Translations under genes and position numbers: made by a program
Notes under the pieces: model-generated
The model's input: only the letters and a program-made list of their open reading frames with translations
Database searches by the model: none
Told to the model about the DNA's origin: nothing
Assembly (NCBI GenBank): GCA_001898965.1
Contig: MKVW01000009.1
Location: 904,853 to 968,852 of the forward strand
DNA length: 64,000 nt
DNA from: Rhizobiales bacterium 62-17
Lineage (GTDB): Bacteria > Pseudomonadota > Alphaproteobacteria > Rhizobiales > Beijerinckiaceae
Direction of reading: 5' to 3'
Part shown: piece by piece, positions 20,388-36,325 of the stretch
Numbering within the stretch: position 1 is the first letter of the stretch
Layout: each line of letters starts with the position of its first letter

Positions 20388-21701
20388 ATGGACACCTATC
20401 GAAACAATATCGATGCCGTCCGCGCGCTGGTTCGTGACGCCGAAGTGCATCGCGACGTCTATATCGACGACGAAATCTTTCAGCTTGAGATGGAACATCT
20501 GTTCCGAAACACCTGGGTTTATGTCGGCCACGACAGCCAGGTGCCGAATGCCGGCGATTATTTCGGCACGAGCATCGGCACGCAGCCGGTGCTGATGGTC
20601 CGCCACAGCGATGGCCAGGTCTATGTGCTGCACAACCGCTGCCCGCACAAAGGCACGCGCATCACCACGGAAACCTGCGGCAATACCGGCAAAATGTTCC
20701 GGTGCCCTTATCACGCCTGGAGCTTCCGCACCGATGGCTCGCTGCTTGGCGTGCCGCTGCGCAAGGGCTACGAACATGCGGGCTTCGACACCAGCGTAGC
20801 CAAGCAGGGCCTGAGCCAGGTCAAGCATGTGCGCAATTATCGCGGCTTCGTCTTCGCCAAGATCAGCGACCACGGCCCCGATTTCGAGGAATTCTTCGGC
20901 GGCAGCCTGTCGAGCATCGACAATATGGTCGATCGCTCGCCCGTCGGCCGGCTCGAAGTGGCCGGCGGCGTGCTGCGCTACATGCACAATTGCAATTGGA
21001 AGATGCTGGTCGAAAATCAGACCGACACCTGCCATCCCATGGTGGCGCATGAATCCTCCGCCGGCACCACGGTCGAAGTGTGGAAGACGGCACCTCCCGG
21101 CACGCCCAAGCCGATGGCGGTCGAAATCTACGCGCCGTTCATGTCGCCTTATGAATTCTATGAAGGTATGGGCATTCGTGTCTGGCCGAACGGCCACGGC
21201 CACACCGGCGTGACCAAGTCGATCCATTCCGATTATTCCAGCGTGCCCGGCTATACGGAAATGATGGAGAAGGCTTATGGCGCCGAGCGCGCCCATGCCA
21301 TTCTCAACGAGAACCGTCACAACACGGTCTATTTTCCCAATGTGATGATGAAGGGGCCGATCCAGCTCCTGCGCGTGTTCAAGCCTTTGGCGGCTGATCG
21401 CACCTTGGTCGAATCCTGGACGTTCCGTCTCGTCGAGGCGCCGGACATGCTTCTGCAACGTACGGTGATGTACAACCGCCTGATCAATGCGCCGACCTCG
21501 ATCGTCGGTCATGACGATCTGGAAATGTACGAGCGCGCCCAGGAAGGGCTGCATGTCGACGGCAATCAATGGGTCAACCTGCAGCGGCTCTATGTGCCGG
21601 GAGAAGAGCAGGGCGACGAAGCGGTGACCAACGGCACGAGCGAATGGCAGATGCGCAATCAGTTCCGCGCCTGGAACAAGTTCATGACCTTGTCGATGTG
21701 A
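20388..21701 (+). CDS. Aromatic-ring-hydroxylating Rieske oxygenase, alpha (catalytic) subunit
   Basis: 437 residues. Rieske 2Fe-2S ligands: Cys85 and His87 (CPHKGT) with Cys106 and His109 (CPYHAW). The mononuclear iron site has Asp213, His216 and His221 in TDTCHPMVAHE, the Asp-x2-His-x4-His pattern. It should insert both atoms (or one) of O2 into an aromatic or indole ring, using electrons from a reductase not encoded in this window. Its partner beta subunit follows at once. Context (isatin-hydrolase-like cyclase, Cys-less thiolase, oxidoreductase) suggests attack on indole-3-acetate to dioxindole-3-acetate, as done by the IadDE system of Variovorax. Other arylacetates or benzoates cannot be excluded. 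First gene of the plus-strand operon to 26194. Confidence 0.9.
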   Translation: MDTYRNNIDAVRALVRDAEVHRDVYIDDEIFQLEMEHLFRNTWVYVGHDSQVPNAGDYFGTSIGTQPVLMVRHSDGQVYVLHNRCPHKGTRITTETCGNTGKMFRCPYHAWSFRTDGSLLGVPLRKGYEHAGFDTSVAKQGLSQVKHVRNYRGFVFAKISDHGPDFEEFFGGSLSSIDNMVDRSPVGRLEVAGGVLRYMHNCNWKMLVENQTDTCHPMVAHESSAGTTVEVWKTAPPGTPKPMAVEIYAPFMSPYEFYEGMGIRVWPNGHGHTGVTKSIHSDYSSVPGYTEMMEKAYGAERAHAILNENRHNTVYFPNVMMKGPIQLLRVFKPLAADRTLVESWTFRLVEAPDMLLQRTVMYNRLINAPTSIVGHDDLEMYERAQEGLHVDGNQWVNLQRLYVPGEEQGDEAVTNGTSEWQMRNQFRAWNKFMTLSM

Positions 21702-21718
21702 GTGGGGCAGCGGAACAG

Positions 21719-22201
21719 ATGACAGTGCCGTCCAATCAGGATCTCATCGACTTTGTCGTGCGCGAAGCGCGGCTGATCGACCAGCATCGTTTCGAGGAAT
21801 GGCTCGACCTCTTCGCCGAGGACGGCATCTATTGGATGCCGCTCGAATGGGGCCAGACCGATCCGCGCCTGACCACATCCTTGATGTATGAAGACAAGCT
21901 GTTGCTGAAAATCCGCGTCGAGCGGCTCAAGGGCGCACGCACCTTCAGCCAGAAGCCGAAGAGCCGCTGCCATCATGTGCTGCAAGTGCCACAGGTCGAT
22001 CAGCGCGACGATGCCACGGGCACTTACGTGCTGTGGACACCGATGCATTATGTCGAAACGCGCCTCGATGAGCAGAAGCTCTATGCGGCCTGGGCAACGC
22101 ATACGCTGGCCTGGGCCGACGGGGCCCTGCGCATCAAGATGAAGCGGGTGGATATCGTCAATTGCGACGCCGCCTTCGGCAATATTCAGCTCTTCATGTA
22201 A
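21719..22201 (+). CDS. Rieske oxygenase beta (small) subunit
   Basis: 160 residues from the ATG at 21719; a GTG at 21698 that overlaps the alpha stop is an alternative. The pattern DLIDFVVREARLIDQHRFEEWLDLF is split here as FVVREARLID and EEWLDLFAEDGIYWMP, the start of the SnoaL-like beta-subunit fold of ring-hydroxylating oxygenases. C-terminal ADGALRIKMKRVDIVNCD is also typical. Beta subunits stabilise the alpha3beta3 hexamer and can influence substrate choice. It is 17 bases after the alpha gene and 10 bases before the SDR gene. Confidence 0.88.
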   Translation: MTVPSNQDLIDFVVREARLIDQHRFEEWLDLFAEDGIYWMPLEWGQTDPRLTTSLMYEDKLLLKIRVERLKGARTFSQKPKSRCHHVLQVPQVDQRDDATGTYVLWTPMHYVETRLDEQKLYAAWATHTLAWADGALRIKMKRVDIVNCDAAFGNIQLFM

Positions 22202-22211
22202 GGTTGCGGTG

Positions 22212-22943
22212 ATGACGGAACGCAAATTCGCGGTGGTGACGGGCGGCAGCGCGGGCATTGGCGCCGCCATCTGCCAGGCGCTTCTCGCCGCCGATTATGA
22301 TGTGGCCTCGCTCGATCGGCAAAAACCCACCTGGTCGCATGCGCGCTTGAAAAGCGTCGATGTCGATTTGATGGACGCGGCCGCCACCGAGCAGGCAGCC
22401 ACCGAACTGGCGAAGACTGCGCCGGTCAGCCATTTCGTTCACAATGCCGGCATCATCCTGCCAAACCTCGTCGAGAAGGCGCAGCCCGACGATCTCGTCG
22501 CCTTGACGCGATTGCATCTGGCCGCCCCGCTCGTTCTCCTGAAAGCCTTCCTGCCCGGCTTCAAGGCGCGGCGCGCGGGCCGCGTGATCCTCATTTCGTC
22601 GCGCGCGGCTCTCGGCGTCGTCACCCGCACGGCTTATTCGGCCACCAAGGCCGGCATCATCGGCATGGGCCGCACCTGGGCGCTGGAACTGGCGCAGCAC
22701 GGCATCACCGTTAATATGATCGCGCCGGGGCCGATCGGGACGACGCAGATGTTTCAGGAGCTCGTGCCTGTCGGCAGCGACGTGGAAGGCGCCATCGCAA
22801 AATCCATTCCCGTTGGCCGCCTCGGCGCACCCGAAGATGTTGCCAATGCGGTCGTGTTCTTCGCGCAGCCGCAATCCAGCTTCGTGACAGGCCAGGTGCT
22901 TTATGTGTGTGGCGGCGCCAGTGTCGGCGTCTCCCCAATCTAA
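22212..22943 (+). CDS. Short-chain dehydrogenase/reductase (SDR)
   Basis: 243 residues from the ATG at 22212 (a GTG lies one codon upstream). Cofactor loop TGGSAGIG, NAG in VHNAGI, catalytic Ser in ILISSRAAL, and Tyr/Lys in YSATK, all standard for a classical SDR using NAD(P). Acidic-residue position after beta-2 (SLDRQK) favours NAD+. It may oxidise or reduce an alcohol/ketone intermediate made by the Rieske oxygenase, for example a cis-dihydrodiol or hydroxy-oxindole. It has the complete catalytic set, in contrast with the SDR domain fused to DUF35 two genes downstream; the two could form an active/inactive pair as in BbsCD. Confidence 0.88.
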   Translation: MTERKFAVVTGGSAGIGAAICQALLAADYDVASLDRQKPTWSHARLKSVDVDLMDAAATEQAATELAKTAPVSHFVHNAGIILPNLVEKAQPDDLVALTRLHLAAPLVLLKAFLPGFKARRAGRVILISSRAALGVVTRTAYSATKAGIIGMGRTWALELAQHGITVNMIAPGPIGTTQMFQELVPVGSDVEGAIAKSIPVGRLGAPEDVANAVVFFAQPQSSFVTGQVLYVCGGASVGVSPI

Positions 22944-22969
22944 AATTCTATTCGTTCTGAAAGTCTCTC

Positions 22970-24148
22970 ATGCCCGGTTCCTTGCGCAGGCCCTATGATC
23001 GGATCGTCGTAGCCGCGCCCGTCACGATTCCTTATGCGCGTTATTCGATCAAAAGTGCCCATTGGTGGATCGGCCGCGCGCTAAAAGCGCTGACCGAGGC
23101 GGCCGGTATCACCGTCCGGGATATCGACGGCTTCTGCGTGTCGAGCTTCACGCTCGGCATGGATACGGGCATCGGCCTCACCCAGCATTTTGGCCTGTGC
23201 GTGCGCTGGCTCGATCACATCCCGCTGGGCGGCGCCAGCGCCATCGCGGCGCTGCGCCGCGCTGCCCGCGCCGTGGAGGCGCATGATGCCGACATCATCG
23301 CCTGCGTCGCCGGCGACACCAATCACACCGATTCCTTCCGCCGGACGCTCGAGAATTTCTCGCGCTTCTCGTCCGATGCGGTCTATCCTCATGGCGCCGG
23401 CGGCGCCAACGGCAGTTTCGCCTTGATCGCCCGCAACTACATGCGCACCTATGGCGTCAAGCGCGAAGATTTGGGCCGCATCGCCGTGTCACAGCGCGCG
23501 AATGCCTTGCGCAATCCGCATGCGCTGATGAAGACGCCGCTTACCTTGGAGCAATATATGGCGGCCCGGCCGATCGCTGATCCGATCCATTTGTTCGATT
23601 GCGTCATGCCTTGCGCCGGCGCCGAAGCCTTTCTGGTGATGCGCGAGGAAACGGCGAAAGCGCTCGGCATCACCGGCGCGAAACTGCTCGGCACCATCGA
23701 ACGCCACAATGCGTTCGGCAACGATCCGATGCAGGTGCGCGGCGGCTGGGCCATGGATATCGACGATCTCTATGGCATGGCCGGGGTGAAGCCGGACGAC
23801 ATGGATTTCGTCCAGACCTATGACGACTATCCGGTGATCTCCATGATGCAGTTCGAGGACCTCGGCTTTTGCAAGAAAGGCGAGGGCGCGGACTTCGTGC
23901 GCGGGCACGACCTGACCATCGACGGCGATTTTCCGCATAACACCAGCGGCGGCCAGCTTTCGGCTGGTCAGGCCGGCGCGGCGGGCGCCTATATCGGTGT
24001 CACCGAAGCGCTGCGGCAGGTTCTGGGCACCGCCGGCCCCACCCAGGTCAAGAACGCCAAGATCGGCCTCGCGTCGGGCTTCGGCATGATCAACTATGAT
24101 CGCGGCCTCTCCTCCGGCGCGGCGATTCTCGCGGGAGCTGCGTCATGA
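22970..24148 (+). CDS. Thiolase-superfamily protein without catalytic Cys (Ltp2/SCP2-like, probable retro-aldolase subunit)
   Basis: 392 residues with the SCP2/lipid-transfer thiolase fold. Where thiolases have the nucleophilic Cys, this protein has PLGGASAI (around residues 85-92), so no Cys; the late GHP motif reads SAGQAGAAG, with Gln334 where the catalytic His should be. It therefore cannot run a normal thiolase reaction. The Ltp2-DUF35 aldolases of steroid side-chain breakdown are also Cys-less thiolase-like proteins and split tertiary beta-hydroxyacyl-CoA esters. The next gene encodes a DUF35 protein and overlaps by four bases (ATGA), just the partner expected. I infer a retro-aldolase acting on a CoA ester such as dioxindole-3-acetyl-CoA. 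The alternative is a Bbs-type 2-acylsuccinyl-CoA thiolase. Confidence 0.8.
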   Translation: MPGSLRRPYDRIVVAAPVTIPYARYSIKSAHWWIGRALKALTEAAGITVRDIDGFCVSSFTLGMDTGIGLTQHFGLCVRWLDHIPLGGASAIAALRRAARAVEAHDADIIACVAGDTNHTDSFRRTLENFSRFSSDAVYPHGAGGANGSFALIARNYMRTYGVKREDLGRIAVSQRANALRNPHALMKTPLTLEQYMAARPIADPIHLFDCVMPCAGAEAFLVMREETAKALGITGAKLLGTIERHNAFGNDPMQVRGGWAMDIDDLYGMAGVKPDDMDFVQTYDDYPVISMMQFEDLGFCKKGEGADFVRGHDLTIDGDFPHNTSGGQLSAGQAGAAGAYIGVTEALRQVLGTAGPTQVKNAKIGLASGFGMINYDRGLSSGAAILAGAAS

Positions 24149-25386
24149 CCGAGCCGCTTGTCCGCCCGCGCCGCAAAAATCCGCTCGCTCGCACCCGTCT
24201 GCCGACCCTGCCGCCGCAATGGCGCAGCCGCACCTCCCATGAACTCACGCGCGCGGCTGCCGAAGGACGCTTCGCTCTGCAATGCTGCGCGGCCTGCGGC
24301 CACTTCACCTATCCGGCGCGCGATGCCTGCCCAGTGTGCCTGTCGGATGAATTGGTGTTCAAGGATGCGCCGCACGGCGGCACCGTTCTGTCCGAGACCA
24401 CGTTGCACATTCCAGCCGATGTCTATTTCCGCGAACGGGCACCCTGGCGCATCGGTCTCGTCAAACTCGACGCCGGCCCGACCATGGTCGCGCACCTGCA
24501 TGGCGACAGCAAGGAAGGCGATACCGTTCGCATGAGCTTGCAGATCGACAAGGCCGGCCAGCCGGTGGCTTTCGCCCAACCTCAGACAGAGACGCCGCAC
24601 ATGAGCGATGACAAGCAATGGCGGGAAATGACCGCCGATCCGAAATTCCGCCGCGTGCTCGTCACCAATGGCCGCACGGTGATCGGCCAGGAGGTGGTGC
24701 GCGCGATGAAGGAGGCGGGTGCCTCCATCATCTTCGTCGGCATCGCCGATGCCTGGAAGCCTTTCCCGGGTGAAGCGGCATTGCGTGCCATGGAAGGCGT
24801 CACCATCGTGCCGCTGAACACGGCGGATGAGAAATCGACCTTCGATCTCGCCGCCGATATCGGCGCCAAGATCGATATACTCGTCAACACCTCCGAACAT
24901 ATTCGCGGCGGCGGGCTGCTTGATCGTCATGGCACCAGCACGTCGGTCGACGAGATCGAGCAGAGCTATATGGCCTTCCTGCATCTGGCCCAGGCTTTTG
25001 GCCCGGTGATGCGCATGCGCGGCGCTGATGGCGTCAACAGCGCCGTCGCCTGGGTGAATATTCTGTCGGTCTATGCCTTCGCCAACTGGCCGCAGTTCGG
25101 CCAGTATTCCGCCGTTCAGGCCGCCTGCCTGTCGCTGTCGCAATGCCTGCGCGCGGAACTTAGGCCAGGCGGCGTACGCGTCATGAACGTGTTCACTGGC
25201 CCGCTCGATACCGAATGGTTTCAGACCGTGCCGCCGCCGAAACTGGCGCCGCGCGTGCTCGCCACCGGCCTCGTGCGCGGTCTGAAGAACGGGCTTGAGG
25301 ATGCTTTCATCGGCGATGTCGCCGAGGAAGTGCGCCAACGCTTCGCCGCCAATCCGAAGGCGCTCGAACGCGAACTCGGCCAGTAA
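24145..25386 (+). CDS. Fusion of a DUF35 OB-fold/zinc-ribbon protein with a degenerate SDR domain
   Basis: 413 residues. Residues 1-70: basic leader and rubredoxin-like zinc ribbon with ligands Cys48, Cys51, Cys62, Cys65 (CAACGHFTYPARDACPVC). Residues 72-150: DUF35 OB-fold. From about 153: SDR domain starting MSDDKQW, Rossmann strand RVLVTNGRTVIG, and the active-site strand with Tyr321 in YSAVQ, where the essential Lys is Gln325. The SDR half is thus probably not an active dehydrogenase. DUF35 proteins serve as acyl-CoA-binding partners of thiolase-like enzymes, here the preceding gene. The fused SDR may dock the active SDR (22212-22943). There is no ribosome site before the internal ATG at 24601, so it is one fused protein. 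Confidence 0.85.
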   Translation: MTEPLVRPRRKNPLARTRLPTLPPQWRSRTSHELTRAAAEGRFALQCCAACGHFTYPARDACPVCLSDELVFKDAPHGGTVLSETTLHIPADVYFRERAPWRIGLVKLDAGPTMVAHLHGDSKEGDTVRMSLQIDKAGQPVAFAQPQTETPHMSDDKQWREMTADPKFRRVLVTNGRTVIGQEVVRAMKEAGASIIFVGIADAWKPFPGEAALRAMEGVTIVPLNTADEKSTFDLAADIGAKIDILVNTSEHIRGGGLLDRHGTSTSVDEIEQSYMAFLHLAQAFGPVMRMRGADGVNSAVAWVNILSVYAFANWPQFGQYSAVQAACLSLSQCLRAELRPGGVRVMNVFTGPLDTEWFQTVPPPKLAPRVLATGLVRGLKNGLEDAFIGDVAEEVRQRFAANPKALERELGQ

Positions 25387-25414
25387 TTTTCAAGAAACAC
25401 AGTTGGAGACGGGA

Positions 25415-26194
25415 ATGGATAAATCGCCCCTTCAGGATTTCGCCGCGGCGATTGCATCCGGCAAAGTCAGGATCGTCGATCTGACCTTCACCCTGAGCCC
25501 GGATTTCCCGGTCATCGTTCTGCCGCCGGAAGTCGGGCAGGCGATGCCGATGCGCATTCAGCGCATCTCGCGTTATGACGATGCCGGCCCGGGTTGGTAT
25601 TGGAACAACATCACGCTCTGCGAACACACCGGTACGCATTTCGACGCGCCGATCCATTGGCACACTGGCAAGGATCTGCCTAACAATGCGGTCGACACTT
25701 TGCCGCCGCAGGACATGATCGCGCCGGCTTGCGTCATCGATTGCTCGGCCGAAGCGGCGAAGGATGCGGATTTTCTGCTCACCGTTCCGATGGTCGAAGC
25801 CTGGGAGGCCAAGCACGGCCGTATCCCCGAGCGCCACTGGGTGCTGCTGCGTACCGATTGGTCGAAGAAGAATTTCCGCGACTACGCCAATCTGAAGGAA
25901 GATGGCGCTCACACGCCGGGGCCGAATGCCGAAGTCATGCGCTGGCTCGTTCACGAGCGTGGCATCATCGGCTTTGGCACCGAGACCATCGGCACCGACT
26001 GGGGCCAGGCCTTCCATCTCGATCCGCCGCTGCCGGCGCATCATTATCTGCATGGCGCGGGCCGCTACGGCCTGCAATGCTTGTGCAATCTCGATCAACT
26101 GCCGCCCACCGGCGCGATGATCGTCTCGGCGCCGCTGAAGATCGAAAACGGCTCGGGCAGCCCGCTGCGCGTGCTGGCGCTGGTGTCGAATTAG
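25415..26194 (+). CDS. Cyclase-family metal hydrolase, probable isatin-hydrolase-like enzyme
   Basis: 259 residues from the ATG at 25415, with GGAGA nine bases before. The PF04199 metal site HTGTHFDAPIH gives His71, His75, Asp77 and His81. Family members are kynurenine formamidase and isatin hydrolase, both Mn2+/Zn2+ enzymes that open N-acyl or lactam bonds on aniline rings. With a Rieske oxygenase and an indolepyruvate-type oxidoreductase nearby, isatin to isatinate is the best guess; kynurenine formamidase is possible but no kynureninase or tryptophan dioxygenase gene is seen. Last gene of the 20388-26194 operon. Confidence 0.82.
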   Translation: MDKSPLQDFAAAIASGKVRIVDLTFTLSPDFPVIVLPPEVGQAMPMRIQRISRYDDAGPGWYWNNITLCEHTGTHFDAPIHWHTGKDLPNNAVDTLPPQDMIAPACVIDCSAEAAKDADFLLTVPMVEAWEAKHGRIPERHWVLLRTDWSKKNFRDYANLKEDGAHTPGPNAEVMRWLVHERGIIGFGTETIGTDWGQAFHLDPPLPAHHYLHGAGRYGLQCLCNLDQLPPTGAMIVSAPLKIENGSGSPLRVLALVSN

Positions 26195-26200
26195 TTCTTA

Positions 26201-26364: not shown

Positions 26365-26383
26365 AGGGCCATTACAAGGCCCT
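26365..26383 (-). terminator. Hairpin at the end of the minus-strand CoA ligase gene
   Basis: AGGGCC (26365-26370) and GGCCCT (26378-26383) form a 6-base stem with a 7-base loop, beginning right at the stop codon of the ligase gene. No clear T-run follows, so it is only a candidate. Confidence 0.35.
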
Positions 26384-28032
26384 CAGGCCTTGCCGGCCGG
26401 TGCCTTGCGCAACTGCGCCTTCAAGGCCCTGAAGTCGAAAACGGCTTGATCGCGCAATGCATTGTTCGCCAGCGTCTTGACCTCGCCACGCGCGATCTTC
26501 TTGGTTGACGAAAGCGGCAGCGCATCGACGAAAGCGATATAGGCCGGCACTTTATGATAGGCCAATGACGCCGCCGCGCCTTGAACGATCGCTTCGGCCA
26601 GCGCTGCATCCGCCTTGGCTGCGGGGTCGGCCTTGACCACGAAGGCGAACACTTCCTCACCTCTGATATCGTCTTGCACCGGCGTCACCGCCGTCGCCTC
26701 CACCTCAGGCAGTTTGTGCAAAGCCGATTCGACTTCCAGCACCGCGATATTCTCGCCACTGCGCCGCACGATGCTCTTCTTACGATCGAAGAACGTCAGC
26801 AGGCCGTCAGCGCCGGCGGAAACATAATCGCCGGTGTGGAACCAGCCGCCGGCCCAGGCTTCCGCCGTGCTCTGCGGATCGTCGAGATAAGCAGTGAAGA
26901 AACCGGCTTTCGGATCATCGCCTTTGGCGCGCACCAGCAATTCGCCGGGCTCGCCCGTCTTCACGTCCTCGCCTTCTTCATTGACCAGCCGATAATCCAT
27001 GCTTTGCGCCGGGCGGCCGATGCAGCGCGATGGGAAACCGCTTGGCTCCTGCGCCGTCGTCGTCGCGGCCGCGCCGCCGGTCTCCGTCATCGCCCAGGCA
27101 TCGACGATGGGAAGGCCGTAGCGCTCCTCGAAGGTCGCGCGATGGCGCACGTCCACGGCCGGAGCGAAGGCGAACCGCGCTTTGTGCCGCCGCTCCGCTT
27201 CGCTCACCGGCAGTTGCAGCAGAATGGCGGGAATGACGCCCAGGCAATGCACGATGGTCGCCTCGCTGTCGGCGACGCAGGCCCACCAGCGCGTCGCGCT
27301 GAAACGGTCGAGCGGCACGACGGCGCCGCCGATCGCCATCATGCCGACGGCGCTGGCGCCGAGCGCATTCATATGGAACATCGGCAGCGGCGTCAGATTG
27401 ATTTCGCCCTCGCTCTTCACCGCCGCCGTGCCGCCCTGGTTGACGTACCAGTCGGCGACGCCGGTGAAATAGCGGTTCGACAGCACGCAGCCTTTCGGCA
27501 AGGCCGTGCTGCCCGATGTGAAAAGCAGAGCGCATTCATTGCCGGACGCATCGTTCTGCCCGCTCACCACGCTTTGGCAGGCGGGAATGGCCGCGCCCGG
27601 TTCGATGAGGCGCGTCGGTCCCAGGTCCGCCTGCCGCGCCAGTGCCATCCGTTCGTAGGCGGCGATCAGGAGATCGGCTTTCGATTTGCGCAACTGATAG
27701 GTCAGCTCGTCCGGTCGCAGATCCGGATTGATCGGCGCGATCGAAACGCCGAGCGCATTGAGCGCCAGCCAATGCACGAAGAATTCTGGACGATTGTCGA
27801 GCAGCAGCGCCACGCGCGCGCCGCAGCCATAGCCGGCGGCTGAAAATTCCGCCTTCAAAGCCTCGACCTGTTTCAGCATGTCGCCATAGCTGATGCGAAA
27901 GCCGTCGCGCGCATAGGACAATTCGGCGCTGGCCGGCGCGATCAGAAACGGCGCATCCGGCCGCCGCGCCGCCGCTTTTGCGAAAGCTTCGTATGGAGAG
28001 CGGTACTGCATCAGGACATCGAGATGCGACAT
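26383..28032 (-). CDS. Acyl-CoA ligase (AMP-forming), first of two
   Basis: 549 residues. The P-loop-like adenylate motif LLFTSGSTALPKG, the A5 region DAWAMTETGG, and A8-type GWFHTGDYVSAGADGLLTFFDRKKS are present; the A10 Lys is in STKKIARGE. It makes an acyl-AMP from a carboxylic acid and ATP and transfers it to CoA. Divergent from the second ligase over about 110 bases, and both share the MarR-like box at 28061-28084. I infer an aromatic or indole-derived acid as substrate. It is about 30-40 percent similar by eye to the next ligase, so they probably act on different acids of the pathway. Confidence 0.9.
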   Translation of the reverse strand: MSHLDVLMQYRSPYEAFAKAAARRPDAPFLIAPASAELSYARDGFRISYGDMLKQVEALKAEFSAAGYGCGARVALLLDNRPEFFVHWLALNALGVSIAPINPDLRPDELTYQLRKSKADLLIAAYERMALARQADLGPTRLIEPGAAIPACQSVVSGQNDASGNECALLFTSGSTALPKGCVLSNRYFTGVADWYVNQGGTAAVKSEGEINLTPLPMFHMNALGASAVGMMAIGGAVVPLDRFSATRWWACVADSEATIVHCLGVIPAILLQLPVSEAERRHKARFAFAPAVDVRHRATFEERYGLPIVDAWAMTETGGAAATTTAQEPSGFPSRCIGRPAQSMDYRLVNEEGEDVKTGEPGELLVRAKGDDPKAGFFTAYLDDPQSTAEAWAGGWFHTGDYVSAGADGLLTFFDRKKSIVRRSGENIAVLEVESALHKLPEVEATAVTPVQDDIRGEEVFAFVVKADPAAKADAALAEAIVQGAAASLAYHKVPAYIAFVDALPLSSTKKIARGEVKTLANNALRDQAVFDFRALKAQLRKAPAGKA

Positions 28033-28084: not shown

Positions 28085-28143
28085 CGTAATCCATAGTCCT
28101 CTATGCCATAGTTTTGGCGAGCACGGTTCCAGGGAGATCGCAA

Positions 28144-29769
28144 GTGACAGCGGATGTGCGGCAAGCCGCCGAGGCTGGCGTGGCAAACGATCGCTTTCAG
28201 GAGATCGCCGCGACCTTCGCCTCCTCCGACCGCGTTCTGCCGACCATTTTGCAGCGCCAAGCGGCGCGCTATAGCGACCGCACGCTGCTGATCGCCGGGG
28301 ATGTGAGCTGGACCTATAAGCAAGCGGCGTCTGTCGCCGCCGCATCGGCGCGCGCTCTTGCGGCAGCCGGCATCAAGCCCGGTGACCGGGTCGCCATTCT
28401 GGCCTCGAACCGCGCGGAATTCCTCGAGATTTATCTCGGTTGCGCCTGGCTCGGCGCCATCGCCGTGCCAGTCAATCCGGCGCTGCGCGGCCCGCAATTG
28501 CAGCATATTTTCCGCAATTCCGGCCCGAAACTCCTGGTCGTGGAAGAGATCTATCGATCCAATCTTGAGGCCGTCACCGAAGCCGGTCTGTTGCCGCCTC
28601 GGCTGTGGACCATCGACGCCTCTGGCATCACGCGCGGCGCGGCATCTCAGGCGGCGCAGGATGAAGACCTGCCCCTGCCGCGCCCTGGCGACACGGTGGC
28701 GGTTCTCTACACGTCAGGCACGACGGGTCCCGCAAAAGGCGTCTGCTGTCCGCAGGCGCAGATGTTCTGGTGGGGCATCTATTCGGCCCGCGCACTCGGC
28801 ATCCGCGAGGGCGACGTCCTGCTGACGACGCTGCCGATCTTTCACACCAATGCGCTGAATGCCTTCTATCAGGCGCTGCTCAATGGCTGCACTTATGTGC
28901 TGGAACCGAAATTCTCAGCATCCGGATTCTGGCCGACGGTGCGCAAATACAAAGCAACCGTCACTTATCTCCTTGGTGCCATGGCGGCGATCCTGCTGGC
29001 ACAGCCGGAGAGCGCTGACGATAAGGACCATTCCGTCCGCGTCGCTTTGGGCGGCGGCGTACCAGGGCGGTTTCACGATCTTTTCCGCGAACGTTTCGGC
29101 GTGCCTTTGGTCGATGGCTATGGATCGACGGAAACCAATTTCGTTTTCGCGAGCCCCATTCCCTCCGATCGGCCGGGCTCCATGGGCTATCTGGCCGATG
29201 GCGTTGAAGCCCGCATTGTCGATGCCGACGATGCGCCGGTTGCCGATGGCGAGGCGGGCGAATTGATCCTGCGCGCCCGCGAGCCTTTCGCCTTTGCCTC
29301 CGGCTATTTCGGCATGCCCGAGAAAACGGTCGAAGCCTGGCGCAATCTCTGGTTTCACTCAGGCGATCGTGTCTTCAAACATGCAAGCGGCCATTATTAT
29401 TTCATCGACCGGATGAAGGACGCGATCCGCCGGCGCGGCGAAAATGTCTCGTCCTGGGAGGTTGAAGACGTCATCCAGGCCCATCCCGCCGTCGCCGCCT
29501 GCGCGGTTTATCCGGTGCCCTCCGAACTGGGCGAGGATGAAGTGGCGGTTGCCATCCAGCGCAAGGATGGCGTGGATCTGCCGCCGCTCGATCTCATCAA
29601 ATATTGCGAAGGGCGGATGGCCTATTTCGCCGTGCCGCGCTTCGTTCGCTTCGTCGATGCCATGCCTTTGACGGAGAACGGCAAGATCAAGAAGGTGAGC
29701 CTGCGCGAAGCCGGCATCACCGCCGACATGTGGGATCGCGAGAAGTCGGGCTATAAACTGCGCCGATAG
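28144..29769 (+). CDS. Acyl-CoA ligase (AMP-forming), second of two
   Basis: 541 residues from the GTG at 28144, which has AGGGAG seven bases upstream; a TTG 30 bases earlier is less likely. Motifs: VAVLYTSGTTGPAKGV, VDGYGSTETNFV, LWFHSGDRVFK, FIDRMKDAIRRRGENVSSWEVE, and the C-terminal Lys in LTENGKIKK. The layout resembles ATP-dependent crotonobetaine/carnitine and aryl-acid CoA ligases. It should activate an acid of the aromatic pathway, for example dioxindole-3-acetate ahead of aldolytic cleavage. Followed by a rhizobial repeat and the convergent marR gene. Confidence 0.9.
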   Translation: MTADVRQAAEAGVANDRFQEIAATFASSDRVLPTILQRQAARYSDRTLLIAGDVSWTYKQAASVAAASARALAAAGIKPGDRVAILASNRAEFLEIYLGCAWLGAIAVPVNPALRGPQLQHIFRNSGPKLLVVEEIYRSNLEAVTEAGLLPPRLWTIDASGITRGAASQAAQDEDLPLPRPGDTVAVLYTSGTTGPAKGVCCPQAQMFWWGIYSARALGIREGDVLLTTLPIFHTNALNAFYQALLNGCTYVLEPKFSASGFWPTVRKYKATVTYLLGAMAAILLAQPESADDKDHSVRVALGGGVPGRFHDLFRERFGVPLVDGYGSTETNFVFASPIPSDRPGSMGYLADGVEARIVDADDAPVADGEAGELILRAREPFAFASGYFGMPEKTVEAWRNLWFHSGDRVFKHASGHYYFIDRMKDAIRRRGENVSSWEVEDVIQAHPAVAACAVYPVPSELGEDEVAVAIQRKDGVDLPPLDLIKYCEGRMAYFAVPRFVRFVDAMPLTENGKIKKVSLREAGITADMWDREKSGYKLRR

Positions 29770-30349: not shown

Positions 30350-30682
30350 AATAGTCTCCTGGAATTTCCCTCTGATCTCAGATGCAATGCGGCGTTGTCC
30401 AGCCCTGAAATCGGATTGGCGCGGCCATCCAGCCGCTCCCGGATTTCAGCAAGCCGCCAACTCTTTTATATCTCAATCATTACCGGGGCGCGATGGGGAT
30501 GTCGAGTTTGGACGTTCGGCAGGCAGTTCTCCACACGGGAAAGCAGCATTCAGCCGCATTTTTCGGCATCTCGCTCACCTCCTGCCTATCCGCCTTCGCG
30601 GGTCGATCATCCCGGTAGACTTGCGCCAAATGCTCAGGTACGTATTAAATAACTTCATGCACAAACTAAATTGAAGGCCCCG
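30350..30682. other. 333-base gap between marR and the thioesterase gene
   Basis: It holds a degenerate MarR-like site (30459-30482) and a possible promoter for the thioesterase operon: TTGCGC near 30619 and TATTAA about 16 bases further. The 3' part is AT-rich (GTATTAAATAACTTC). No other gene-like frame with good signals was found. Confidence 0.4.
30459..30482. promoter_or_regulatory. Candidate MarR box 3 (weak)
   Basis: The left arm AACTCTTTTA matches 9 of 10 positions of AACTATTTTA from the perfect palindrome at 32476-32501; the right arm (TCAATCATTA) is poor. It would be placed to control the divergent marR and thioesterase genes. Confidence 0.25.
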
Positions 30683-31171
30683 ATGCCGCGCTTTGCTCCC
30701 CTGTCGCTCTCCTCTTTGCCTGGCAGCGTCTGGCGCAGAAGCTTTCTGATCCGGTTTGGCGACTGCGATCCCGCCGGCATCGTTTATACGCCGGAATATT
30801 TCAATATTTTCAATGGGGTAATCGAGGATTGGTATGGCCAATGCCTAGGGCTGCCCTATCCCATGCTGATTGGCCAGCGGCGCATGGGTCTGGGCTATGC
30901 CCATGTCTCCGCCGACTTCTCCCAGCCCAGCTCCATGGGCGAAGTGCTTGAGGCCGCAATCATCGTCAAGAGCATCGGCCGGTCTTCGGTGGCCCTGTCC
31001 GTGCATGCCTTCAAGGCCGGCGTCGAATGTGTACGGGCCAATTTCGTGACTGTGACCACATCCTTGCGCGATCATTCGGTGATCGCAATTCCCGACGATC
31101 TGCGTCAGGCCTTCGAAACCTATCGGCAGGGCTGTAATGTGCCGGAGCTTTCAGAGAGCGTGGTGCAATAG
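30683..31171 (+). CDS. 4-Hydroxybenzoyl-CoA-thioesterase-like hot-dog protein
   Basis: 162 residues from the ATG at 30683 (GAAGG five bases before). FGDCDPAGIVYTPEYF (residues 25-40) is the hallmark of the 4-hydroxybenzoyl-CoA thioesterase group; Asp27 or Asp29 would be the catalytic acid. It hydrolyses an aromatic acyl-CoA to the free acid. In this cluster anthraniloyl-CoA to anthranilate is the attractive reaction, after the 2-oxoacid oxidoreductase encoded in the same operon. It heads a plus-strand series with the binding protein at 31234 and the oxidoreductase genes. Confidence 0.85.
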   Translation: MPRFAPLSLSSLPGSVWRRSFLIRFGDCDPAGIVYTPEYFNIFNGVIEDWYGQCLGLPYPMLIGQRRMGLGYAHVSADFSQPSSMGEVLEAAIIVKSIGRSSVALSVHAFKAGVECVRANFVTVTTSLRDHSVIAIPDDLRQAFETYRQGCNVPELSESVVQ

Positions 31172-31233: not shown

Positions 31234-32397
31234 ATGAAACGCATGCTGGTATCCGCCCTCGCGATCGGTCTGATATGGCCGGGCGCCGCCTCCGCCGAAA
31301 TCGTTGTTGGTTTCGTCACGGGCCTGAGCGGCGCCGTCTCTTCCATCGGCATTCCCATTGGCAAAGGCATTGCCGCCGGCCAGGTCTATCGCGGTGAGAT
31401 CGACGGCGAGCCCATTCGCGTCATTGAACTCGACGATGCGTCCGATCCATCCATGGCGGCGCGCAACACCCGCAAACTCGTCGAGCAGGAAAAGGTCGAC
31501 GCCCTGATCGGCACGTCGGGCGCGCCGCAAACCGTGGCCATGGCGACGATTGCGGTTGAACTGAAGGTGCCGATGGTCGCGGTCTCCCCCATCACGCCGC
31601 CGCCGACAGGCGAAGGCGGCCCGTGGGTGGTGCAGTCCTTGCAACCGCAGTTGCTGTTGTTCCAAGGCATTGTCGGCCACATGAAGGCGAACAAGGTGAA
31701 GACGGTGGCGTTCATCGGCTTCAACGATGCGCTGGGCGATCTGATGTACAGCTCGCTGGTCGAGAGCGCTAAGGAAGCCGGCATCAACATCGTCGCCAAC
31801 GAGCGTTATGCGCGCACCGAAACCTCCGTCACCGGCCAGATCTTGAAAATCGTGTCGCAGCGGCCGGATGCCATCGTTATCGGCGGCACGGCCACGCCAG
31901 CCGCGCTGCCCGCCCTCGCTCTCGCCGAGCGTGGCTACAAGGGATTGGTCTATGGCAACAACGGCATGATCAGCGCCGATTTCCTGCGCGTCGCCGGCAA
32001 GGCCGCCAATGGCATCATCTGCCCGACGGGGCCGGTCATCGTCGCCGAACAGCTGCCCGATTCCAACCCGACCAAGAAAGTTTCGATTGCCTATCGTGAG
32101 ACCTATCAGAAGGCTAATAATGCGCCGGCGATCGATGGGTTCTCGCCCTATGCCTTCGACGGCTGGGTGATCTTGACCGACGCGATCAAGCGCGCCAAAG
32201 CAACCGGCGCGAAGTCGGGGACGCCGGAATTCCGGGCCGCGATCCGTGCGGCGCTTTATTCGACGAAAGAACTCGCCGGCGCCTATGGCGTTTATAATTT
32301 TACGCCAGCCAGCACCTATGGCGTCGACGAACGTTCGGTGACCTTGGTGAAAATCGACAATGGTGCCTGGAAACTGTTGCCGGCGGCTACGCCCTAA
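31234..32397 (+). CDS. Branched-chain-type ABC substrate-binding protein (second copy)
   Basis: 387 residues with a signal peptide (about 1-21, GLIWPGAASA) and the type I binding fold: VVGFVTGLSGAVSSIG, ELDDASDPSMAARNTRKL, and LAERGYKG. It is a close paralogue of the protein at 17559-18701 throughout its length. No permease or ATPase genes lie next to it, so it probably delivers ligand to the LivH/LivMG/LivF importer at 14002-17521. Position inside the aromatic block suggests that the ligand is a pathway substrate. Start ATG at 31234, GGAGG nine bases upstream. Confidence 0.9.
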   Translation: MKRMLVSALAIGLIWPGAASAEIVVGFVTGLSGAVSSIGIPIGKGIAAGQVYRGEIDGEPIRVIELDDASDPSMAARNTRKLVEQEKVDALIGTSGAPQTVAMATIAVELKVPMVAVSPITPPPTGEGGPWVVQSLQPQLLLFQGIVGHMKANKVKTVAFIGFNDALGDLMYSSLVESAKEAGINIVANERYARTETSVTGQILKIVSQRPDAIVIGGTATPAALPALALAERGYKGLVYGNNGMISADFLRVAGKAANGIICPTGPVIVAEQLPDSNPTKKVSIAYRETYQKANNAPAIDGFSPYAFDGWVILTDAIKRAKATGAKSGTPEFRAAIRAALYSTKELAGAYGVYNFTPASTYGVDERSVTLVKIDNGAWKLLPAATP

Positions 32398-32402
32398 GCA
32401 GC

Positions 32403-32426: not shown

Positions 32427-32468
32427 ATAGGCATGAAGAAGAGGATGCGGCGGCGGGGTGAAAGCGCC

Positions 32469-32501
32469 TTGACGCAAACTATTTTAGACATAAAATAGTT
32501 T
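32469..32501 (+). promoter_or_regulatory. Promoter overlapped by a perfect 11-base palindrome (MarR box 4)
   Basis: -35 TTGACG (32469-32474) and -10 TAAAAT (32491-32496), 16-base spacing. The same stretch is a perfect inverted repeat: AAACTATTTTA (32476-32486), spacer GACA, and its reverse complement TAAAATAGTTT (32491-32501). A repressor bound here would cover the -10 and most of the spacer. The likely repressor is the MarR protein at 29834-30349; the target is the oxidoreductase operon starting at 32584. Confidence 0.65.
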
Positions 32502-32583
32502 CACTTCGTCGGTGCATCCTATTGCAATCGGTACGAAACAGCGCGCCACAGTAAGATGGCGCAGGGCCGCGAAGGAGCGGAAC

Positions 32584-34734
32584 ATGGCAGAGCGTTCATT
32601 CGCCAGTGAAGTCGAGGATCTCCGTCTGGGTGAAGGCGAGGTCTTTCGCGGCGAGGGCATTCTCGCCATCACCAAAGCCTTGCTGCAATCGGGCGTCGCC
32701 TATGTCGGCGGCTATCAAGGCTCGCCGATCTCGCATCTGATGGACGTGTTGGCCGACGCCAAGGACGTGCTCGATGAGCTGGGCGTCCACTTCGAATCTT
32801 CCGCATCGGAAGCCGCTGCCGCCGCCATGCTGTCGGCCTCGGTCATGTATCCGCTGCGCGGCGCGGTGACGTGGAAATCCACCGCCGGCACCAATGTCGC
32901 CTCCGATGCGCTGACCAATCTGTCGTCGAGCGGCGTCAACGGCGGCGCGCTGATCATCGTCGGGGAGGATTTCGGCGAGGGGTCTTCGATCCCGCAGGAA
33001 CGCACCCATGCCTTTGCGATGAAGTCGCAGATGTGGATGCTCGATCCGCGCCCCAACCTGCCGTCCATGGTCGATGCGGTGGAGACCGGCTTCGAACTGT
33101 CGGAAGCCTCCAACACGCCGGTGATCCTGCAGGTGCGTATTCGTGCTTGTCACGTGCACGGCCAGTTCACGACCAAGGCCAATCGCGCGCCGCGCTATAC
33201 GATGCAGGAAGCGCTGCAGAATCCGCAGCGCGATCTTAATCGCATCGTCCTGCCGCCGGCCTCCTACATGCAGGACAAGCAGAAGCTCAACGAGCGTTGG
33301 CCTGCCGCCGTCAAATTCGTCAAGGAGCGCCGCCTGAACGAATGGTTCGGGCCGGACGAGGGCGAGGTCGGCATCATTCTGCAAGGCGGAATGTACAATT
33401 CGCTGATCCGCGCTTTGCAATATCTCGGTCTCGCCGATGTCTATGGCGATTCGAAAATCCCGCTCTATGTGATGAACGTCACCTATCCTCTGATCGACGA
33501 TGAGGTGGCGAAGTTCTGTGCCGGCAAGCGCGCCGTTCTGATGGTCGAGGAAGGCCATCCCGAATATCTCGAACAGGCTGTCAACACGATCCTGCGCCGT
33601 CGCGACATCAATGCGCGGCTCGAGGGCAAAGGCATGCTGCCGCTCGGCGGCGACTATACGGCCGACGTTCTGACCAAGGGTGTCGAAACCTTCCTCGAAG
33701 CCCATGCCAAGCCGCTGCTCGGCAACCGCTCGCCGATGCCGACCGCTGCCGGCGTGCTGAGCAATCCGAAGGTCAAGGCGCTTGCCGATGTGGTGCCGCA
33801 GCGCCCGGCCGGCTTCTGCACCGGCTGTCCGGAGCGGCCGATCTTCGCGGCGATGAAACTGGTCGAGCAGGAGCTGGGGCCGCATCAGATCTCCTCCGAT
33901 ATTGGCTGTCATCTCTTCTCCATTCTGCCGCCCTTCAATCTCGGCGGCACGACCATGGGTTACGGGCTGGGCCCGGCCTCGGCCTCGGCCTTCAACGTCG
34001 CTTCGAAGAAGAAAGCGGTGTCCTTCCTGGGTGACGGCGGCTTCTGGCATAACGGCCTGTCGTCCAGTGTCGGCAACGCGGTCTTCAACAAGCAGGACCA
34101 GGTGATCGTCGTCGTCGACAACTACTATTCCTCGGCAACCGGCGGTCAGGACATTCTCTCCTCGCGTGCCGAGAACGAGCGCCGGTCGACCAACAATTCC
34201 ATCGTCACGGCGGTGAAGGGCATCGGCGCCAAATGGGTGCGGCAGATCGATCGCACCTATGATGTCGGCAAGATGCGCGACACGCTAAAGGAAGCGCTTA
34301 CCAGCAACGAACCCGGCCCGAAGATCATCGTCGCTTCGTCGGAATGCATGCTGAACAAGCAGCGTCGCGTGAAGCCGCTGTTCGACAAAGCCGTCAAGAA
34401 CGGCGAGCGCGCGATCAAGCAGCGTTTCGGCGTCGATGAGGATGTCTGCACCGGCGATCACGCCTGCATGCGCCTGTCCGGCTGTCCCTCGCTGTCGGTG
34501 AAACATACCAACGATCCGTTGAAGGATGATCCGGTCGCTGCGATCGATCAGACCTGCGTCGGCTGCGGCAATTGCGGCGAGGTCGCCGAGGCCGCCGTGC
34601 TGTGCCCCTCCTTCTATCGCGCCGATGTCATCAACAACCCGACGCGGTGGGATCGCGGCGTGGCTCGGGTGCGCGAGGCCGTCATCGGCTTCCTGCAGCG
34701 CCGGCGCGAGGCCCGCCGGCCTGTGTTCATCTGA
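32584..34734 (+). CDS. Indolepyruvate-type 2-oxoacid:ferredoxin oxidoreductase, alpha subunit
   Basis: 716 residues from the ATG at 32584 (GGAG nine bases upstream). N-terminal pyrimidine/2-oxoacid domain (AYVGGYQGSPISHLMD), middle domain with FCTGCPERP, TPP-binding block GDGGFWHNGLSSSVGN followed by VDNYYSSATGGQ, and a C-terminal ferredoxin-like region with CTGDHACMRLSGCP and CVGCGNC...LCP for [4Fe-4S] clusters. The enzyme decarboxylates an arylpyruvate or aryl-glyoxylate, makes the acyl-CoA and reduces ferredoxin. In this cluster isatinate (2-aminophenylglyoxylate) to anthraniloyl-CoA is my inference; indolepyruvate to indoleacetyl-CoA is the classic alternative. The beta-type gene follows 37 bases later. 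Confidence 0.92.
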   Translation: MAERSFASEVEDLRLGEGEVFRGEGILAITKALLQSGVAYVGGYQGSPISHLMDVLADAKDVLDELGVHFESSASEAAAAAMLSASVMYPLRGAVTWKSTAGTNVASDALTNLSSSGVNGGALIIVGEDFGEGSSIPQERTHAFAMKSQMWMLDPRPNLPSMVDAVETGFELSEASNTPVILQVRIRACHVHGQFTTKANRAPRYTMQEALQNPQRDLNRIVLPPASYMQDKQKLNERWPAAVKFVKERRLNEWFGPDEGEVGIILQGGMYNSLIRALQYLGLADVYGDSKIPLYVMNVTYPLIDDEVAKFCAGKRAVLMVEEGHPEYLEQAVNTILRRRDINARLEGKGMLPLGGDYTADVLTKGVETFLEAHAKPLLGNRSPMPTAAGVLSNPKVKALADVVPQRPAGFCTGCPERPIFAAMKLVEQELGPHQISSDIGCHLFSILPPFNLGGTTMGYGLGPASASAFNVASKKKAVSFLGDGGFWHNGLSSSVGNAVFNKQDQVIVVVDNYYSSATGGQDILSSRAENERRSTNNSIVTAVKGIGAKWVRQIDRTYDVGKMRDTLKEALTSNEPGPKIIVASSECMLNKQRRVKPLFDKAVKNGERAIKQRFGVDEDVCTGDHACMRLSGCPSLSVKHTNDPLKDDPVAAIDQTCVGCGNCGEVAEAAVLCPSFYRADVINNPTRWDRGVARVREAVIGFLQRRREARRPVFI

Positions 34735-34771
34735 TCAGTCGTAACCAACGACGAAAACGAAAGATACGACT

Positions 34772-36325
34772 GTGGACCGGACACATCCTGATAAACCGAT
34801 CGCTCTTGCCATCCTCGCCATGGGTGGTCAGGGCGGCGGTGTGCTCAGCGACTGGATCGTCGCGCTGGCGGAAAGCCAGAACTGGGCCGCCCAGTCCACC
34901 TCCGTGCCGGGCGTCGCGCAACGCACCGGCGCCACCATCTACTATGTCGAAATGATGCCGCCCCAGGGCGATCGCATGCCGGTGCTGTCGCTCATGCCGA
35001 CCCCGGGCGATGTCGATGTGGTGATGGCGGCCGAATATATGGAAGCTGGCCGTTCGATGATGCGTGGGCTCGTCACGCCCGAACGCACGACGTTGATCGC
35101 TTCGAGCCATCGCTCCTTGGCGGTCAGCGAAAAGGAACAGGCCGGCGACGGCATTGCCGATTCCGGTGTTGTGGTCGAGGCCACGCCGGTGGCGGCCAAG
35201 CGCTCCGTCGTCTTCGACATGCAGACGATGGCCGAGAAGAATGGCAGCGTCATTTCCGCGGTTATGTTCGGCGCTCTGGCCGGCGCCAAAGTGCTGCCGT
35301 TCGATCGGGAGGCTTTCGAGGGCGCGATCCGCGCTGGCGGCAAGGGTGTCACCCAAAGCTTGAAAGCCTTCGGTGCCGGCTTCGATCGCACCGTCAGTCC
35401 GGTTGCCGAAGTGGCGGAGCCAAGGAGCGGCAAGGAATTTCTGGAGCCGCCGCAATCTCTGAAGGATCCGCGCCTCGACAAGCTGTTGCAGCAAATCCGG
35501 CAGAACTATCCGGCGGCTTTGACGCCGCTGCTCTATACCGCCATCACCCGTCTGGTCGATTACCAGGATCCGGCCTACGCGCAGGACTATCTCGATCGCA
35601 TCGCGGCGATCCATCGCCTCGACACGAGCCTGTCGGGCGAGAGGCACAATTTCGCGCTAACCCGCGAAGCGGCTAAATATGTCGCCATCGCCATGGCCTA
35701 TGACGATGTCATCCGCGTCGCCGATCTGAAGACGCGCGCCAGCCGTTTCGCGCGGGTCGATGCGGAAGTCGGCAAAAAGCAGGACCAACTGCTTTACATG
35801 ACCGAGTTCATGCATCCGCGTATGGAGGAAGTGGCGGGCACCATGCCGGCCGGCCTCGGCCGCTGGCTCGAAAATCATCCGGCCGTGTTCAATCGGCTCG
35901 ACAAACTGGTCAACCGCGGCCGGCGCGTGCAGACCCGCACGGTCTTCTGGTTTTTCTCGCTCTACATGGTCGGCGGCATGCGGCGCTTTCGTCGTGGCCT
36001 GTTGCGTCATGAGAAAGAGTTGGCGCATCTCAACGGCTGGCTGAAGCTCGTCACCGAGACGGCGCCGAAGGATTATCCTCTCGCCGTGGAAATCTTGAAA
36101 TGTCGCCGTTTGGTCAAAGGCTATTCGGATACGGCGGCGCGCGGCAATTCCCGTTTCGAGCGCGTCTTGCAGAGCGTGCCGCAACTGATCGGCAAGCCCG
36201 ACAGTGCCGGCTGGCTACGCCGCCTCACCACCGCCGCGCTCGCCGATGAGGACGGCACCAAACTGACGGGCGCTCAGAAGACGCTCGAAACCGCTTTCGA
36301 AGCGGAGCAGCCGCGCGTCGCATAA
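34772..36325 (+). CDS. Indolepyruvate-type oxidoreductase, beta-type subunit (long form)
   Basis: 517 residues, GTG start at 34772. The N-terminal 190 residues are the gamma/beta catalytic domain of 2-oxoacid:ferredoxin oxidoreductases, starting LAILAMGGQGGGVLSDWI with the Gly-rich loop, then SVPGVAQRTGATIYYVE. The C-terminal half (about 225-500) is a helical domain (DUF6537 type) that marks the long beta family of aerobic Proteobacteria. It completes the enzyme with the 716-residue alpha subunit. No separate ferredoxin gene is adjacent. Last gene of the operon; a convergent asparaginase-like gene ends 17 bases on. Confidence 0.88.
   Translation: MDRTHPDKPIALAILAMGGQGGGVLSDWIVALAESQNWAAQSTSVPGVAQRTGATIYYVEMMPPQGDRMPVLSLMPTPGDVDVVMAAEYMEAGRSMMRGLVTPERTTLIASSHRSLAVSEKEQAGDGIADSGVVVEATPVAAKRSVVFDMQTMAEKNGSVISAVMFGALAGAKVLPFDREAFEGAIRAGGKGVTQSLKAFGAGFDRTVSPVAEVAEPRSGKEFLEPPQSLKDPRLDKLLQQIRQNYPAALTPLLYTAITRLVDYQDPAYAQDYLDRIAAIHRLDTSLSGERHNFALTREAAKYVAIAMAYDDVIRVADLKTRASRFARVDAEVGKKQDQLLYMTEFMHPRMEEVAGTMPAGLGRWLENHPAVFNRLDKLVNRGRRVQTRTVFWFFSLYMVGGMRRFRRGLLRHEKELAHLNGWLKLVTETAPKDYPLAVEILKCRRLVKGYSDTAARGNSRFERVLQSVPQLIGKPDSAGWLRRLTTAALADEDGTKLTGAQKTLETAFEAEQPRVA

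Follow-up and report, generated by a model that had tools for sequence, protein, structure and literature searches.

Which enzymes carry indole-3-acetate (IAA) towards anthranilate in Rhizobiales bacterium 62-17, and what do those that follow the first oxidation act on? The question is raised by a block of genes at positions 20388-36325 of a stretch of 64,000 nucleotides from this organism (contig MKVW01000009.1, assembly GCA_001898965.1; hereafter the window), which an earlier note had read as a complete pathway from IAA via dioxindole-3-acetate, isatin and isatinate to anthranilate. Judged by its genes, the block is an iad-type IAA degradation locus, a kind of locus already known. The outline of the earlier scheme was right but incomplete in detail: the genes it named are all present as open frames with significant family matches, but it overlooked a short-chain dehydrogenase/reductase (SDR; IadJ), a second acyl-CoA ligase and a periplasmic binding protein inside the block (Table 1), and the word “complete” was too strong because the window lacks the reductase IadC. 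The full route as we propose it, from uptake through the Rieske oxygenase IadDE and IadJ, a ligase, IadG with IadH and the hydrolase IadI to the oxidoreductase IadAB, is likely to be correct. As a locus it is one more iad cluster; what gives it value are the testable proposals on IadG, IadH and IadAB.

Related loci were collected with a profile built from six IadD homologues; the best 80 of 564 related places (the named loci, including Bradyrhizobium, Achromobacter, Azoarcus and Aromatoleum evansii KB740; contig ends shorten some stretches) and 12 further stretches (92 in all) were searched with the window proteins. Matches below 38% identity or 75% of the length were excluded from the rows of homologues, and rows with in-frame stops were dropped, which removed one IadJ, five IadA and one iadF-type ligase and left IadG, IadH and IadI unaffected; one gene, present as L032 and L219, is counted twice in the 75 rows of IadH and the 77 rows of IadG. 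The same genes recur across the 80 named loci (IadE in 80, IadJ in 71, the thiolase-like IadG in 59, IadH and the oxidoreductase alpha subunit in 56 each, isatin hydrolase in 54), so the block is more than a chance assembly. Achromobacter loci read iadA, iadB, reductase, iadD, iadE, ligase, thiolase-like gene, DUF35-SDR gene, cyclase, SDR, binding protein and transporter; the window holds this set reordered and without the reductase, and is therefore an iad locus of the known kind, with all five members of the iadF-iadJ set (ligase, thiolase-like, DUF35-SDR, cyclase and SDR). With the iadABCDEFGHIJKLMNR cluster of Variovorax paradoxus CL14 and Achromobacter it shares homologues of iadA, iadB, iadD to iadJ, the binding protein(s) and the Liv transporter; it differs in lacking iadC, in having its iadF-type ligase on the opposite strand, in gene order, and in an additional ligase and an additional thioesterase. 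Gene content fits the named Achromobacter and Bradyrhizobium loci and IadD matches the Variovorax protein over its full length. A Pfam scan of 28 window proteins found regulators of the LysR (10249-11208) and GntR/FCD (42608-43399) types and no MarR regulator.

The cyclase-family protein had been taken for an isatin hydrolase, and this is borne out down to the residues of the active site. IadI matches isatin hydrolase A (5nnb/5nna) over its full length (E 1e-110), and 11 of the 12 positions checked against the Labrenzia aggregata enzyme (LaIHA; key residues taken from PMC6117287) are kept in it and in 56/56 homologues. The Mn site His69, His73 and Asp75, together with His79, Asp193, His207 and the GLQC motif (LaIHA numbering), is present in all of them. 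Like the isatin hydrolases A of L. aggregata (5NNA/5NNB) and Ralstonia solanacearum (5NMP), IadI has the Mn ligands, the Asp-His-His residues, the Trp pocket and the Gln-Cys pair, but the position of LaIHA Tyr204 is Leu. By this strong homology, IadI would hydrolyse isatin to isatinate.

Which enzyme would then consume isatinate? The simplest reading of the gene linkage is that IadAB oxidatively decarboxylates isatinate to 2-aminobenzoyl-CoA. The window subunits are 57-74% (IadA) and 46-59% (IadB) identical to the copies in named iad loci. Among 398 genomes from the phylum, with scoring limited to the few best candidates of each (“no match” thus meaning none found among those), an IadA homologue (E<=1e-120) was detected in 29 and an isatin hydrolase (E<=1e-50) in 25, both occurring together in 23; in 17 of these 23, from 10 genera, the two lie within 10 kb of each other, and 14 of the 17 have no IadD match at E<=1e-60. 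Four of the 29 (G139, G191, G205, G231) hold only copies of 52-55% identity, and none of the eight IadA-like places at that identity has an isatin hydrolase match within 10 kb. The neighbourhoods of IadA outside iad loci, covered in 16 of the 29 genomes, gave 16 stretches: the hydrolase adjoins IadA in four, a CrtI-like flavoenzyme intervenes in eight, and four are without the hydrolase. This linkage, together with a nearby enzyme of the 2-aminobenzoyl-CoA monooxygenase type (see below), points to the oxidation of isatinate to 2-aminobenzoyl-CoA. The step from isatinate to anthraniloyl-CoA in the earlier scheme thereby gains comparative support. Against it, the iadC-K2 region of Variovorax, without iadAB, restored anthranilate (PMC12633357), so that IadAB is not required for anthranilate there. 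Further points weigh against the assignment. The co-occurrence of IadA and hydrolase (Fisher p 1e-29) is calculated ignoring relatedness, eight of the 17 linked genomes come from one genus, and two genomes (G237, G327) carry a hydrolase but no IadA, while six show the reverse.

An alternative, unlikely in our view, places IadAB upstream as an ordinary indolepyruvate oxidoreductase, which together with the thioesterase would supply the pathway with IAA made from indolepyruvate, while isatinate is decarboxylated to 2-aminobenzaldehyde and this is oxidised to anthranilate without IadAB. The best curated match of IadA is indeed the alpha subunit of indolepyruvate ferredoxin oxidoreductase (TIGR03336), but the score (E 4e-84, 283 bits) is far under the cut-off of 650.9 and places IadA in the same superfamily, not in that equivalog. 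The anthranilate formed in Variovorax without iadAB agrees with this alternative, as does the detection of C7H7NO, the formula of 2-aminobenzaldehyde, which accumulated together with C8H7NO3, the formula of isatinate, on overexpression of iadC-K2 in the HS33 deletion (both PMC12633357). C8H7NO3, however, built up only in these overexpressers, and the deletion lacks iadA by the gene numbers in PMC9613470, hence presumably also iadB; the build-up of both compounds fits a missing consumer of isatinate, confounded by the overexpression. Moreover, IadA accompanies isatin hydrolase where the genome gave no IadD match, unlike the IadA-like copies of 52-55% identity, and no aminotransferase was seen among the family-scanned genes of the block.

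Other arrangements around isatinate oxidation were also found. A CrtI/phytoene-desaturase-like flavoenzyme lies beside or between hydrolase and oxidoreductase, with no IadD, in L181, L182, L186, L187, L188, L193, L196 and L197-L200; its substrate may be an indole that is oxidised towards isatin. In 13 of the 80 named loci, all from Bradyrhizobium (L047, L048, L050, L051, L053-L061), a gene for an acyl-CoA dehydrogenase stands next to iadA, often along with a RidA-like one, and IadG, IadH and IadI are absent from the fetched stretch; in two relatives an isatin hydrolase lies 17-20 kb from iadA.

If IadAB makes 2-aminobenzoyl-CoA, the thioesterase could release it as anthranilate; alternatively, a pathway of the 2-aminobenzoyl-CoA monooxygenase type encoded elsewhere in the genome could consume it. 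The thioesterase to which release of anthranilate had been ascribed is present and retains that candidate role, but it is not a conserved iad gene. It found no match at E<=0.01 in the 92 other stretches of the iad search (best E 0.016), which weighs against its part in the route and by which it was rejected as a core gene. Homologues (31-41% identical, E 1e-16 or better) occur in four of 20 fetched stretches, all with an NF006101-type monooxygenase, and in two stretches the homologue lies directly between that monooxygenase and IadB. The NF006101-type flavin monooxygenase/reductase is found near IadA in four of the 16 stretches outside iad loci and in five of the 80 named loci (one under a stricter length filter). 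Its two-domain architecture is, we assume, that of 2-aminobenzoyl-CoA monooxygenase/reductase; on the other side, NCBIfam names the family “salicylyl-CoA 5-hydroxylase”, which weighs against a firm assignment of its substrate. The genome of the window (5.66 Mb, nine contigs) contains an NF006101-type cluster with RidA-like, SDR, acyl-CoA dehydrogenase and ligase genes at 246 kb of contig C9 and a second monooxygenase at 117 kb of contig C5. The resemblance to the 2-aminobenzoyl-CoA monooxygenase/reductase pathway thus lies in genes of this type, which in several genomes adjoin the iad-type oxidoreductase and which this genome carries at other places; the differences are that the gene lies outside the window and that its family is named for salicylyl-CoA. 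Aromatoleum evansii KB740 (L096), an organism with a known anaerobic route for IAA (PMC9613470), carries an iad locus too, and an NF006101-type monooxygenase adjoins it in the stretch of about 10 kb on either side of IadD.

How would the side chain be removed upstream of isatin? Active-site residues and fold suggest that IadG, held by the DUF35 part of IadH, cleaves the beta-hydroxyacyl-CoA in a retro-aldol reaction to isatin and acetyl-CoA. IadG was rejected as a thiolase (or ketothiolase): as the earlier note had read it, the protein is Cys-less in the sense that both thiolase cysteines are gone, here and in the aligned homologues, with Gly87-Gly88 at the position of the nucleophilic Cys in 76/77 rows (one gap). 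The YDDY motif is invariant except for one residue in a single row of the 77, and Tyr284, at the position of the catalytic Tyr of the YDxx motif, is kept in 77/77. A fold predicted from the single sequence was useless (pLDDT 34), that from an alignment of 28 sequences reached pLDDT 80.7. The gene directly after IadG encodes a DUF35 protein with a C4 zinc finger, whose Cys48, Cys51, Cys62 and Cys65 are all kept in 74/75 rows, and we propose that this protein, IadH, is the partner of IadG. Its SDR part has retained the Tyr and Lys pair in one of 75 rows (Tyr321...Gln325 in the window), the first Gly of TGxxxGxG is replaced in every row (Asp in 75/75; the window has Asn), and the second survives in 2/75. 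IadH as a dehydrogenase was rejected on the loss of the active-site pair and of the cofactor motif, L225 being the one exception. With a Cys-less IadG resembling CtSal and a degenerate SDR in IadH, the published annotations “ketothiolase” (IadG) and “alcohol dehydrogenase” (IadH) are probably wrong.

The closest parallels are the steroid systems Sal-Shy (CtSal with the DUF35 protein CtShy) and Ltp2-ChsH2, which share with IadGH a thiolase fold without nucleophilic Cys, a catalytic Tyr and a fused DUF35 partner. They differ in the acid residue (Asp286 in IadG, Cys304 in CtSal, Tyr344 in Ltp2), in the domain fused to DUF35 (a degenerate SDR in IadH, a MaoC hydratase in the steroid aldolase partners) and in the predicted substrate (aromatic for IadGH, steroid for the others), and the zinc finger of IadH (C-x2-C-x10-C-x2-C) is like that of ChsH2 and unlike the C3H1 finger of Shy. 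Asp286 and Gln334, which stand in place of the Sal Cys and the second Tyr of Ltp2, are both conserved in 77/77 rows; with this different acid residue, IadG may work like Sal but is classed as neither Sal nor Ltp2. The retro-aldol step that had been assigned to the thiolase-like and DUF35 proteins thus finds comparative support in the lost cysteines and the catalytic Tyr, but not in the acid residue. Three observations speak against it. CtSal needs Cys304 where IadG has Asp (its replacement by Ala, Ser or His abolished activity); IadH of L225 has both SDR residues; and in Variovorax the compound upstream of IadI was C8H7NO2 (the formula of dioxindole), not isatin, and side-chain removal was termed reductive (PMC12633357), whereas a plain retro-aldol yields isatin.

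It is accordingly worth weighing whether IadG is a true thiolase, or whether IadGH removes the side chain reductively with IadH as a reductase giving dioxindole, as annotated in PMC12633357; we regard either as quite improbable. C8H7NO2 built up both when iadI was deleted and when the remaining genes were expressed without it (PMC12633357), and thiolase-named models match IadG, although below their cut-offs. A thiolase, however, would have to work without both cysteines and on a proposed substrate with a tertiary beta-hydroxyl instead of a beta-keto group, and a reductase would have to do without the Tyr and Lys pair in 74 of the 75 rows and with the first two glycines of TGxxxGxG lost in nearly all rows. 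Turning back to retro-aldol cleavage by IadGH, it is on balance slightly probable that three proposals hold jointly: IadAB as an isatinate:ferredoxin oxidoreductase, hydrolase plus IadAB as a stand-alone isatin module, and IadGH as a non-steroid Tyr/Asp retro-aldolase with a dead SDR scaffold.

Two further stretches (L189 and L190, genomes G392 and G265) hold ligase, IadG, IadH and isatin hydrolase together, with no IadD match in either genome, and L189 has a thioesterase and an NF006101-type monooxygenase in the same run; the set is perhaps a side-chain-removal module for another first oxygenase.

The substrate of IadGH would be dioxindole-3-acetyl-CoA, made by one of two ligases. A CoA ligase for this step had been proposed, and one is present, but there are two candidates, not one. 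The first is 43-47% identical to the ligases that occupy the place of iadF in named loci, and it groups with them in a tree. Its clade is found in 50 of the 80 named loci, that of the second ligase in 22 and both in 11; in 10 the second clade replaces the first. A role of either as anthranilate-CoA ligase was rejected, as the topology of a FastTree tree sets both apart from the ligase of the monooxygenase cluster, which argues against that role and is not proof. Elsewhere in the genome (L209, C9:1416000-1432000), a second isatin hydrolase (57-59% identical) lies about 1.6 kb from another ligase of the second type (53%).

IadD matches 9O71 (E 1.1e-186) and 7yls/8h2t (5.6e-185) over its full length, the next solved Rieske sequence following at E 1e-44; 9O71 is IadDE of V. 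paradoxus CL014 (PMC12633357). By the IadD match, the PF00866 domain of IadE and synteny, the window pair is orthologous to Variovorax IadDE. Window IadD is 58% identical to the IadD L015, which comes from a genome with an IadD closely similar to that of Variovorax CL14, and is therefore not a near copy. Isotope work in Variovorax has monooxygenation by IadCDE followed by dehydrogenation by IadJ to complete dioxindole-3-acetate (PMC12633357). The Rieske step of the earlier scheme, IAA to dioxindole-3-acetate, stands in so far as IadDE is present, but by the same account IadDE alone is not expected to suffice, and IadJ had been omitted. The Tyr/Lys pair of IadJ is kept in 74/74 homologues counted. 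Here, IadDE would monooxygenate the indole ring with electrons from a reductase encoded elsewhere, and IadJ would oxidise the hydrated product to dioxindole-3-acetate, as shown in Variovorax. That the reductase lies outside the window, as had been stated, agrees with the search: no IadC-type match was found in the window, a point against the proposed route. IadC likewise found no match in 16 of the 70 named loci that extend 4 kb or more upstream of IadD, and iadDE was the minimal vector in PMC9613470; IadC beside IadDE is usual, not defining, for iad loci. The best IadC-like protein of the genome (43% identical, C9:626485-627351) is a candidate partner: among the eight Rieske alpha subunits found in the genome, the window's IadD is the nearest to it, about 300 kb away. 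A second IadDE-like Rieske pair (L021/L035, C9:1268696) is 35% and 37% identical to that of the window.

IAA would enter through the first binding protein and the Liv transporter (Table 1). Homologues of the transporter were found in many iad loci, and by position it likely takes up aromatic acids or IAA; LivF has an ABC_tran Pfam match, and LivMG and LivH were named by reading the sequence, not by family search. The IAA-binding residues of IadK2 include F168, W172, R199, F308 and Y311, and substitution of Trp172 impaired binding (PMC10374108). Chains 7yls and 7ylt appear to be IadD and IadK2 of that paper, the available text of which gives no codes; position 125 is Ala in 7ylt and Thr in the paper, and the residue check was therefore limited to the five that fit. 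All five are retained in the first binding protein, which makes it the better IadK2-like candidate of the two, and Ser104 and Asn126 are lost in both. That the block degrades another indole acid, e.g. a substituted indoleacetate, is very improbable: the 58% identity of IadD to the CL14-like protein and the Leu for Trp172 in the second binding protein would suit it, but the first binding protein keeps the five key residues, isatin hydrolase and IadJ fit the IAA route, and the gene set fits genera reported as IAA degraders (Achromobacter and Bradyrhizobium).

The alpha/beta hydrolase gene adjoins that of the first binding protein, and copies 61-68% identical occur in nine of the 80 named loci; the enzyme could free IAA from a conjugate. 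Downstream of the block (36343-47666) lie asparaginase-like, FmdA/AmdA-type and amidase genes, an oligopeptide-type ABC transporter and the GntR/FCD regulator, possibly a cluster for uptake and hydrolysis of amides or amide conjugates; its asparaginase-like and FmdA/AmdA-type genes had no matches in the other searched stretches.

Table 1. Genes of the iad-type locus and its transport genes in the window
Feature	Coordinates	Strand	Evidence and remarks
Branched-chain-type ABC transporter	14002..17521	-	LivF 14002-14784, fused LivM-LivG 14712-16481, LivH 16478-17521
First periplasmic IAA-binding protein, IadK2-like (candidate)	17559..18737	-	60% identical to 7ylt, E 2e-143
Alpha/beta hydrolase	18793..19644	+	PF00561
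IadD, Rieske oxygenase alpha	20388..21701	+	PF00355 E 1.6e-19, PF00848
IadE, Rieske oxygenase beta	21719..22201	+	PF00866 E 7e-23; start inferred, open frame 21569-22201
IadJ, SDR dehydrogenase	22209..22943	+	Tyr/Lys active site and TGxxxGxG motif intact
IadG, thiolase-fold retro-aldolase candidate	22970..24148	+	PF22691 E 9e-35; YDDY motif at 284-287
IadH, DUF35 (C4 zinc finger and OB) fused to degenerate SDR	24145..25386	+	zf-ChsH2, OB_ChsH2_C
IadI, isatin hydrolase	25415..26194	+	PF04199 E 4e-40; start inferred, open frame 25295-26194
AMP-forming acyl-CoA ligase, iadF clade	26383..28032	-	PF00501; candidate dioxindole-3-acetate CoA ligase
Second, divergent acyl-CoA ligase	28114..29769	+	NF004808 828 bits, above cut-off
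Hot-dog (4HBT_2) thioesterase	30671..31171	+	PF13279; candidate 2-aminobenzoyl-CoA thioesterase
Second periplasmic binding protein, IadK3-like	31234..32397	+	7ylt E 6e-127; Leu at Trp172 position
IadA, 2-oxoacid:ferredoxin oxidoreductase alpha	32584..34734	+	TIGR03336, TPP_enzyme_C; start inferred, frame 32512-34734
IadB, oxidoreductase beta	34772..36325	+	PF01558 (POR), PF20169 (DUF6537)

Bacteria that degrade auxin shape how roots grow, and the transfer of iad genes into soil bacteria is under way (PMC12633357); in that preprint the enzymes after dioxindole-3-acetate are assigned largely by annotation, and iadAB is never named in its text. Among the matches listed in our literature search, titles and abstract openings held no proposal of the IadGH retro-aldol or IadAB isatinate steps, subscription papers and bioRxiv lying outside that search, and we do not claim priority. 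The present analysis gives iadAB a proposed substrate and product, names residues of IadG and IadH, and points to a wider isatin module. If this is true, auxin carbon could enter a CoA-bound pathway without free anthranilate, and isatin hydrolase and IadAB would work as an isatin module in bacteria without the auxin oxygenase.

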